Below, one piece after another: positions 22,124 through 24,235 of a stretch of 36,381 nt of DNA. Location: the NCBI GenBank assembly GCA_018058425.1, contig JAGOZX010000023.1, forward strand, positions 1-36,381. The letters are read 5' to 3'. Within the stretch, counting starts at the first letter, position 1. Every line of letters starts with the position of its first letter. This DNA comes from Sebaldella sp. (GTDB lineage: Bacteria > Fusobacteriota > Fusobacteriia > Fusobacteriales > Leptotrichiaceae). A model generated the notes under the pieces. The model had not been told where the DNA came from and did not search any database. It saw nothing but the letters and a program-made list of their open reading frames with translations. A program made the translations under genes and the position numbers.

Positions 22124-22696
22124 TTAAATTAATAAATTAATAAAATTTTTGATAATTGCCTTTCCATAATCAGTAAAGTATGATTCAGGATGAAATTGTA
22201 CTCCATAAATAGGCTTTGTCTTATGTCTTAAAGCCATAATGATATTATCATCAGTAACAGCAGTGACTTCGAGATCCTCTGGAAAGTTATCTTGGGAAAG
22301 ATAGAGAGAATGATACCTCATTACAGAAAAATTATCAGGTAGTCCATTAAATAAACCATCCTTTTCAATAATAGTAATATTTGATAATTTTCCATGTACT
22401 GGATCAGCTAGATATTCTATAATTCCAAAATGAGTATATCCAATAGCTTGGTGCCCTAAACAGATTCCCAAAATAGAAGTATCTAAATCAGCTCTTAGAA
22501 TATCAAGGCATATTTTACTATCTTTAGGATGTTTAGGACCAGGAGATAATATAATTTTTGAAGGAGCTAATATCTTTATATCTTCTAAATTTATTTTGTC
22601 ATTTCGTACTGTTAAGATTTCTTCATTAGTGATTTCCTCTATATATTGTTTAATATTGAAAACGAAGGAATCATAATTATCAATTAATAAGATCAT
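22124..22696 (-). CDS. trpG: Anthranilate synthase glutamine amidotransferase subunit
   Basis: 190 residues of class I glutamine amidotransferase. The nucleophile is C79 in GICLGHQAIG; the His-Glu pair is in VQFHPES near the C-terminus. It releases ammonia from glutamine for TrpE. It overlaps the end of trpE by 4 bp (ATGA). Related PabA proteins are very similar and a shared role in folate synthesis is possible, but its place directly after trpE in the operon supports TrpG. Confidence 0.94.
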   Translation of the reverse strand: MILLIDNYDSFVFNIKQYIEEITNEEILTVRNDKINLEDIKILAPSKIILSPGPKHPKDSKICLDILRADLDTSILGICLGHQAIGYTHFGIIEYLADPVHGKLSNITIIEKDGLFNGLPDNFSVMRYHSLYLSQDNFPEDLEVTAVTDDNIIMALRHKTKPIYGVQFHPESYFTDYGKAIIKNFINLLI

Positions 22697-23970
22697 ACTT
22701 TTTCCTCCTCACATTTTATATTAAAGACATTGATTAAGGACTTTCTTTTATGACAAATTTCTTGGTATTCTTTTTCTGGATTTGAGTCAAAAACTATTCC
22801 AGCTCCTGATTGTATGAAGTATTTTTCATTATTGTAAAAAGCAGTTCTTATAATAATAGCTATTTGGGAATCTCCATTATAATGAAGAAATCCTATTCCG
22901 CCACCATAAATATGTCTTTTATACTCTTCAAGCTCTGATATAATTTCCATGGCTCTTATTTTAGGTGAGCCGCTAAGTGTACCAGCTGGAAAAGCAGTAG
23001 TGAGAATATCTAAAACATCAAATTCTTCTTTTTTATTTCCATAAACTTCACTTACAATATGCATAACATGCTGGAAATATTCAATGTGCATAGGCCTTTC
23101 AACTGTAACACTTCCAGATTCACTAAATTTCCCTGCATCATTTCTAGCTAAATCTATAAGCATTCTATGTTCAGCGAGTTCTTTTTCATCATTTAGAAGG
23201 TCATGTGCCAAAAATAAATCTTCTGCTTCATCTTTTCCTCGAGGTCTTGTTCCAGCAATAGGAGCAATGAAAATCTTATTATTATTTACTTTTAATAGTA
23301 TTTCTGGACTTGAGCCAATAACATCACCATACTTTGTGGGGAAATAAAACATATATGGTGAAGGATTTTGTTTTGAAAGCTCCTCATAGAATTCCATTGG
23401 ATCTAGATTAGAGCTAATAAGCATTTGTGTGCTGAGAACTACTTGAAAAATATCACCTTCTTTTATAAATTTCTTAGCTTTTTTTACTATTTTTATAAAA
23501 TTATTTTTTTCTTTGATTTTATTAGTAAGTATAGAGTATTTATTATTTTTCTTTTTAAGTTGTTTAGAATTTTTTTCATATTCTTTGCATTTAGTGAGTA
23601 TGTCCTCATACTTACTTTTATCACCATGAAAAGTAAAACTTAAAGTTTTTTTATCAAAGTGAAGATAAGCATCAGCATCTGAAAAAATAAAGTTTGGAAA
23701 GTAATATTGTTCACTTTTTATTTCGTTTATTCTTTCAAAATAATGTATAGTTTCATAGGCGAATACACCAAATAGACCAGAAAAATCTGAAATTCCATTT
23801 TTATTTTTGATAAAATCTCGTATATCTTCATAAGAATACATTGTAGAATCTAAATAGCTACAATTTATACCAATAATTATCTGGGTTGTATCCTCTGCAA
23901 GATAGCTGTTCTCATATGTTTCTCTGATATATTTATAATAATTAATTGGATCTTTTTCTGTATATTTCAT
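22693..23970 (-). CDS. trpE: Anthranilate synthase component I
   Basis: 425 residues from the ATG at 23970, which is preceded by GGGAGGGG at about 23975-23983. The frame stays open upstream to 24072, but that part is the attenuator RNA. The chorismate-utilising domain carries KEGDIFQVVLS, NPSPYMFYF, IAPIAGTRPRG, AEHRMLIDLARND, FPAGTLSGSPK and AGIVFDSNPEKEYQE. PYMF and PIAGTRPRG favour TrpE over PabB. The N-terminal regulatory domain is short; the residues SYLAED near 17-22 sit where the Trp-binding LLES motif is expected. It makes anthranilate from chorismate with TrpG. First structural gene after the leader. Confidence 0.95.
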   Translation of the reverse strand: MKYTEKDPINYYKYIRETYENSYLAEDTTQIIIGINCSYLDSTMYSYEDIRDFIKNKNGISDFSGLFGVFAYETIHYFERINEIKSEQYYFPNFIFSDADAYLHFDKKTLSFTFHGDKSKYEDILTKCKEYEKNSKQLKKKNNKYSILTNKIKEKNNFIKIVKKAKKFIKEGDIFQVVLSTQMLISSNLDPMEFYEELSKQNPSPYMFYFPTKYGDVIGSSPEILLKVNNNKIFIAPIAGTRPRGKDEAEDLFLAHDLLNDEKELAEHRMLIDLARNDAGKFSESGSVTVERPMHIEYFQHVMHIVSEVYGNKKEEFDVLDILTTAFPAGTLSGSPKIRAMEIISELEEYKRHIYGGGIGFLHYNGDSQIAIIIRTAFYNNEKYFIQSGAGIVFDSNPEKEYQEICHKRKSLINVFNIKCEEEKV

Positions 23971-23992: not shown

Positions 23993-24030
23993 AAATAAAA
24001 AAAGAGCTCCCTATAGAACAAGAACTCTTT
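23993..24030 (-). terminator. Second terminator of the trp leader
   Basis: On the minus strand AAAGAGTTC pairs with GGAGCTCTTT (including a T-G wobble) and runs into TTTTATTTT, ending about 23 bases before the trpE start codon. Its 5' arm AAAGAG can alternatively pair with CTCTTT, the end of the preceding hairpin (24043-24038). Confidence 0.8.
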
Positions 24031-24069
24031 AAAAAGAAAAGAGATATTACCAGAATTGATAATATCTCT
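24031..24069 (-). terminator. First trp attenuator terminator (3:4 hairpin)
   Basis: On the minus strand the perfect 10-bp stem AGAGATATTA/TAATATCTCT (24069-24060 and 24049-24040) is followed by TTTCTTTTT. Its 5' arm AGAGATATT can instead pair with AATATTTTT at 24128-24120, within the leader reading frame, which would be the antiterminator. Confidence 0.82.
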
Positions 24070-24101
24070 CATATATTAAAACATCAAAGAATTATAAAAA
24101 A

Positions 24102-24173
24102 CTACTCGGTATAGGTGATAAAAATATTTAATTGTAAAATATCAAACCACCAGCTCCAAAGATTGTTTTTCAT
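24102..24173 (-). CDS. trpL: trp operon leader peptide
   Basis: A 23-codon ORF, MKNNLWSWWFDILQLNIFIT then YTE, preceded by AAAAGGAG at 8 bases from the ATG. Three of four consecutive codons are tryptophan (TGG AGC TGG TGG at 24158-24147), the hallmark of a ribosome-sensed trp attenuator. A hairpin can form between GGTG in the Trp codons (24151) and CACC (24114), with GATATTT/AAATATT inside. A ribosome stalled at the Trp codons breaks this hairpin and frees the second segment. The peptide itself has no expected function after synthesis. Too short for routine ORF calling, but promoter, Shine-Dalgarno, Trp codons and terminators all fall in the right order. Confidence 0.93.
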   Translation of the reverse strand: MKNNLWSWWFDILQLNIFITYTE

Positions 24174-24206
24174 AATTATTTCTCCTTTTATTTTTTATTT
24201 TAACTA

Positions 24207-24235
24207 ATTCTAATATTTTTCAATCATAAAGTCAA
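24207..24235 (-). promoter_or_regulatory. trp operon promoter
   Basis: Minus-strand TTGACT (24235-24230), 17-bp spacer, TAGAAT (24212-24207). The start point would be about 25 bases before the trpL start codon. No Trp-repressor-like palindrome was recognised over it. Confidence 0.8.

Follow-up and report, generated by a model that had tools for sequence, protein, structure and literature searches.

The textbook trp attenuator carries one terminator, and the his operon attenuator is organised as an alternating set of helices in which A:B, C:D and E:F stand against B:C and D:E. Two adjacent Rho-independent terminators have been reported for the erm(K) attenuator of Bacillus licheniformis, according to the passage of PMC4335068 that cites Kwak 1991; tandem attenuators with two separate short ORFs, sensing ATP and proline, are known from the Salmonella mgtCBR leader (PMC3641672), and a second terminator in tandem is found in the rimP leader of Gammaproteobacteria (PMC2965389). 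Our searches covered the open-licence literature and found there no paper on trp attenuation in Fusobacteriota and, when targeted at tandem terminators combined with a leader peptide, none on that subject either.

The window, i.e. the whole stretch of DNA that was analysed, comprises 36,381 nucleotides of a Sebaldella sp. genome (contig JAGOZX010000023.1) and carries a trp operon preceded by the following elements:

23970 to 17768, minus strand: trpEGDCFBA operon, genes named from translations and ORFs
22693 to 23970, minus strand: trpE, first gene of the operon, from translation, ORFs and homologues
24102 to 24173, minus strand: leader peptide MKNNLWSWWFDILQLNIFITYTE and stop codon, containing W S W W with three Trp codons, from translation
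24114 to 24151, minus strand: hairpin 1:2, which includes the Trp codons, folding at -8.6 kcal/mol
24039 to 24070, minus strand: terminator T1 (3:4), -15.4 kcal/mol, tail TTCTTTTT, from hairpin search and kept in relatives
24001 to 24030, minus strand: terminator T2 (5:6), -11.4 kcal/mol, tail TTTTATTT, from hairpin search and kept in relatives
24207 to 24235, minus strand: putative promoter-like site TTGACT-17-TAGAAT for the leader transcript, inferred from a consensus match

The peptide of 23 residues comes from a short ORF in which Trp codons are clustered and which has a ribosome-binding site (AGGAGA precedes it); it is encoded upstream of the trpE start at 23970 and of the other trp genes, and intrinsic terminators, two here, lie between it and the first gene. 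These features support its identification as part of a two-terminator leader for trp attenuation. Both terminator tails are U-rich, two terminator-like hairpins are present in the leader where 0.4 are expected from dinucleotide shuffles, and the whole leader folds far better than shuffled sequences (z -4.36). The consensus match of the promoter-like site does not rise above shuffle background, and in L002 and L003 a comparable TTGACT...TAGAAT stretch precedes the leader. The initial annotation, made from the DNA letters, had described a Trp leader with WSWW codons, a hairpin 1:2 at 24151-24114 and two terminators; the peptide is borne out by translation at 24173-24102, the hairpin by its predicted fold, and the letters and all coordinates quoted for segments 2, 3, 4 and 5 agree exactly with the DNA. 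The second terminator, too, was found in the window and in most of its relatives.

A search of Fusobacteriales for TrpE homologues placed them in 96 genomes, and the regions upstream of them were read, giving a set of 33 fusobacterial trp leaders from 12 genera, with several close relatives among them. Two or three clustered Trp codons occur in a peptide preceding the terminators in all 33, and T1 and T2 stand in tandem in 29 of the 33 (10 of the 12 genera), namely in 19/19 leaders of Leptotrichiaceae, representing six genera, and in 10 of Fusobacteriaceae (g19, g20, g24 and g25), while Fusobacteriaceae g18 and g21 possess a single clear terminator of the T1 kind. Since both hairpins are present in 29/33 leaders, the tandem arrangement is not due to chance, and the double terminator is the rule rather than an oddity of the window genome. 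A contig search of held-out relatives yielded no further Leptotrichiaceae leader. None of the Rfam covariance models applied (Trp_leader, T-box, riboswitches) matched the leader at gathering score, sub-threshold hits being spurious, and the fusobacterial trp leader looks like an unrecorded family distributed over 12 genera. Elsewhere in the window, an FMN riboswitch was found at 1152-1272 on the minus strand (Rfam RF00050, 109.9 bits).

Several relatives depart from the simple order of leader and trpE. In L004 (g5) the leader, at 218-269 and with both terminators, lies ~1.2 kb before trpE, and the intervening gene has a product that resembles the substrate-binding protein of an ABC transporter, possibly one for Trp. 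In L013 and L015 (Leptotrichia) a stretch of ~0.9 kb that looks non-coding and repeat-like separates the trp leader from trpE, so that close control of trpE by the leader may have been lost, and in L019/L020 (G012) a Leptotrichia trpE is broken by stops and a frame change, the leader being intact. The TrpE proteins of Leptotrichiaceae share 52-54% identity with their counterparts in Capnocytophaga and Campylobacter concisus but 41-47% with those of Fusobacteriaceae, which suggests, at the level of protein similarity, transfer of the trpE gene; no such leader was found in Capnocytophaga or Campylobacter, the closest TrpE sources found outside the phylum.

Three further segments of the leader are predicted to take part in alternative helices:

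24165 to 24178, minus strand: segment 0, the start-codon region of the leader peptide and partner of region R, 0:R at -14.4 kcal/mol
24083 to 24102, minus strand: region R (GTTTTTTATAATTCTTTGAT), which can pair alternatively with segment 0, segment 3 and partly segment 5, from predicted helices
24085 to 24119, minus strand: predicted shared antiterminator strand (segment 2b plus R, hereafter the post-Trp strand), whose partner is the T2 5' arm and loop, duplex at -12.4 kcal/mol

In most leaders segment 0 pairs with a region R located after segment 2 (compared with shuffles, p reaches 0.003 at the lowest), and in the window fold 0:R reaches P=0.89 and hairpin 1:2 P=0.84 without a ribosome. Specificity was assessed by own-versus-swap comparison, the logic being that segments which have coevolved should pair better with their own partner than with those of other genera; by this measure 0:R is species-specific (p<0.0001), and in the proposed model it looks like a default-off state. 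The step at T1 is less well founded. Segments 2 and 3 as paired in the initial annotation (AATATTTTT:AGAGATATT) reach only -3.2 kcal/mol in the window, whereas the R:3 hairpin, at -7.2 kcal/mol, is the better candidate. The own-versus-swap p for 2:3 varies from 0.04 to 0.21 with how segment 3 is cut, and in the window the statistics are not compelling for either helix; the T1 step is one of two weak points of the model, the other being the final competition at T2.

In the window the predicted duplex between the post-Trp strand and T2 joins 24119-24085 to 24030-24008 and encloses T1, and this strand is the best partner upstream of T1 for the T2 5' arm and loop. The complementarity begins at leader nt 48-57 in each of the six Leptotrichiaceae genera that possess a trp leader, and its energy stays between -9.3 and -12.8 kcal/mol across the family despite T2 sequences that differ strongly by genus, as the following pairings illustrate:

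Window: CCTATA:TATAGG and AATTCTTT:AAAGAGTT
Leptotrichia: TTTTGCC:GGTAAAA
L006: GCCATAAA:TTTGTGG
L005: AGAATTT:AAATTCT

In an exact own-versus-swap test that took a single sequence from each genus the true pairing was the best of 720 (p 0.0014), and p ranged from 0.0014 to 0.05 when two sets of representatives were combined with four ways of cutting T2; with 8-10 representatives it was <0.0001 if the cut lay 4 nt or more beyond the T2 loop and 0.003-0.008 for shorter cuts. Several segment cuts were tried and all are reported. The controls, i.e. the reversed strand, the T2 3' arm, the regions downstream of T2 and upstream of the peptide, and 4:5, gave nothing significant at 0.05. Tested separately, the arm part of T2 ranked 4/720 and the loop part 28/720; both contribute, and pairing with the strand is therefore incompatible with T2 itself. 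Within Sebaldella the own pairing ranked first of 6 permutations, and permutation of T2 in the window by itself gave p 0.037, rising to 0.42 or 0.47 when the 4 nt past the loop were omitted. Leptotrichia subgroup A, in which there is little sequence variation, added no own-versus-swap signal, and the signal in Fusobacteriaceae is marginal (p 0.04-0.23). The strongest single case is L039 (g25), where a post-stop strand at leader nt 53-73 matches T2 through GCUAUUAG:CUAAUGGC and GGAC:GUCU at -17.1 kcal/mol (p 0.002-0.017). The elements themselves, their conservation and the specific complementarity of strand and T2 are results of computation, and comparison of the sequences suggests that in Leptotrichiaceae the post-Trp strand and T2, which would pair directly, have coevolved, and segments 4 and 5 have not.

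This coevolution speaks against an alternative, that T2 is a plain fail-safe terminator leaking at a fixed rate behind a T1 that alone is regulated. T2 folds by itself in every leader that has it, Fusobacteriaceae g18 and g21 manage without it, and an unregulated partial terminator would cut expression and leave the induction ratio unchanged. Such a T2 would account for everything but the coevolution of its 5' arm and loop with the post-Trp strand; given this, and the retention of T2 in all six Leptotrichiaceae genera that have the leader, we regard a fail-safe role alone as unlikely.

The initial annotation had proposed another route, in which 2:3 forms, the freed segment 4 pairs with segment 5 (CTCTTT:AAAGAG) and T2 can no longer form. 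These letters are present in the window, but the helix, at about -3.8 to -4.0 kcal/mol, is at chance level there: against a null in which T2 stems were permuted with 5:6 pairing kept, p was 0.23 as a hairpin and 0.32 as a duplex, and the three species of the window's genus gave 0.23 (window), 0.47 and 0.26. In Leptotrichia and most other Leptotrichiaceae 4:5 falls below the null (~0 versus about -2.2 kcal/mol). The computational checks put forward with the proposal were run, and they found no covariation of 4:5 across related leaders for the window's lineage, and P(4:5)=0.00 in the window when it was folded with a ribosome stalled on the Trp codons; nor did 4:5 give an own-versus-swap signal (p 0.43 and 0.83; 0.19-0.94 in one-per-genus sets, with one cut at 0.06). 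In Fusobacteriaceae g19, g20 and g25, L039 excepted, 4:5 has a high predicted stability (-8.6 to -13.1 kcal/mol) and in most cases exceeds the permutation null (p 0.002-0.077), and there the domino route may be possible. In g20 and g25, however, inspection of the sequences shows T2 to be visibly similar to T1, e.g. CCTGTTCACTATGAGCAGG and CCTATTCATAATGAGTGGG, and if T2 is a duplicate of T1 the 4:5 complementarity arises by descent alone. As an explanation of the leader the domino is quite improbable; the idea that one stall could open both terminators is supported, the passage through 4:5 is not supported in this lineage. A pairing of the T1 U-tract with the T2 loop, spotted by eye in Leptotrichia, amounted to just -1.4 kcal/mol or was absent. 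It is very improbable that the strand:T2 complementarity is merely a loop contact which aids T2 folding or pauses RNA polymerase, with no antiterminator involved, because although part of it engages the loop (28/720; CCUAUA:UAUAGG in the window), the 5' arm alone is specific too and its pairing excludes the T2 stem.

The reading we prefer, and consider probable, is a ribosome-mediated trp attenuator in which two intrinsic terminators are placed in series under a single Trp-codon sensor. Folding by ribosome state was modelled at equilibrium at 37 C, the front of the ribosome being assumed to extend 14 nt. With the ribosome halted at the last Trp codon and the T2 3' arm not yet made, the strand is predicted to pair with segment 5 at P=0.81, T1 being nested within (-28.1 kcal/mol); with the ribosome at the stop codon P(strand:5) in the window is 0.21, and it is 0.00 if no ribosome is present. 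As soon as the T2 3' arm has emerged, T2 (5:6) becomes the favoured fold at equilibrium even in the stalled state, P(strand:5) dropping to 0.04, and blocking of T2 must therefore be kinetic, so that the order of synthesis must matter. In classical attenuators, too, the order of synthesis is accepted to matter.

In the following scheme the ribosome footprints, the order of events, actual termination and the response to Trp are inferred. Without a ribosome, the start-codon region would pair with R and 1:2 would form, locking the post-Trp strand, and T1 and T2 would therefore both fold. When Trp is plentiful, a ribosome at the stop codon would cover the post-Trp strand, with the same two terminators forming. 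When Trp is scarce, the ribosome would stall on the Trp codons and leave the strand free, allowing it first to bind segment 3 (in Sebaldella mainly as R:3, about -7 kcal/mol) so that RNA polymerase passes T1, and, as segment 5 emerges, to bind the T2 5' arm and loop (-12.4 kcal/mol) and thereby block T2; T1 may then refold harmlessly behind the polymerase, inside the long-range strand:T2 helix. That a single stall uses one strand twice in this manner, disabling T1, being handed over as T1 refolds and then disabling T2, is a tentative proposal to which we would give slightly less than an even chance. If it is true, the conserved leader of Leptotrichiaceae would show how two terminators in series under one sensor can tighten repression multiplicatively and still preserve induction, and how a single RNA strand can influence two decisions one after the other.

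Compared with known systems, the leader shares with E. coli-type trp attenuators the peptide with clustered Trp codons, a hairpin 1:2 that includes them and a terminator before trpE, and differs in having two terminators, the second of which is complemented by the post-Trp strand across the first; unlike those leaders described by the Rfam Trp_leader model, it gives no match to that model. The his attenuator, an alternating-helix domino set by one stalled ribosome, comes near to what the initial annotation proposed, but has one terminator only, at the end of the chain. The rimP leader resembles the fusobacterial leader in its tandem terminators and a possible antiterminator (PMC2965389), and differs in its gene and sensor and in that no leader peptide is described. 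Alike in layout, as far as the account in PMC4335068 goes, is erm(K), with one leader peptide, two adjacent intrinsic terminators and control by ribosome stalling; there the stall is drug-induced, the gene confers resistance and the host belongs to another phylum, and the likeness, which is one of described layout, carries no claim of homology. The mgtCBR leader likewise accommodates two attenuation events, whereas the fusobacterial trp leader would subject both to one sensor.
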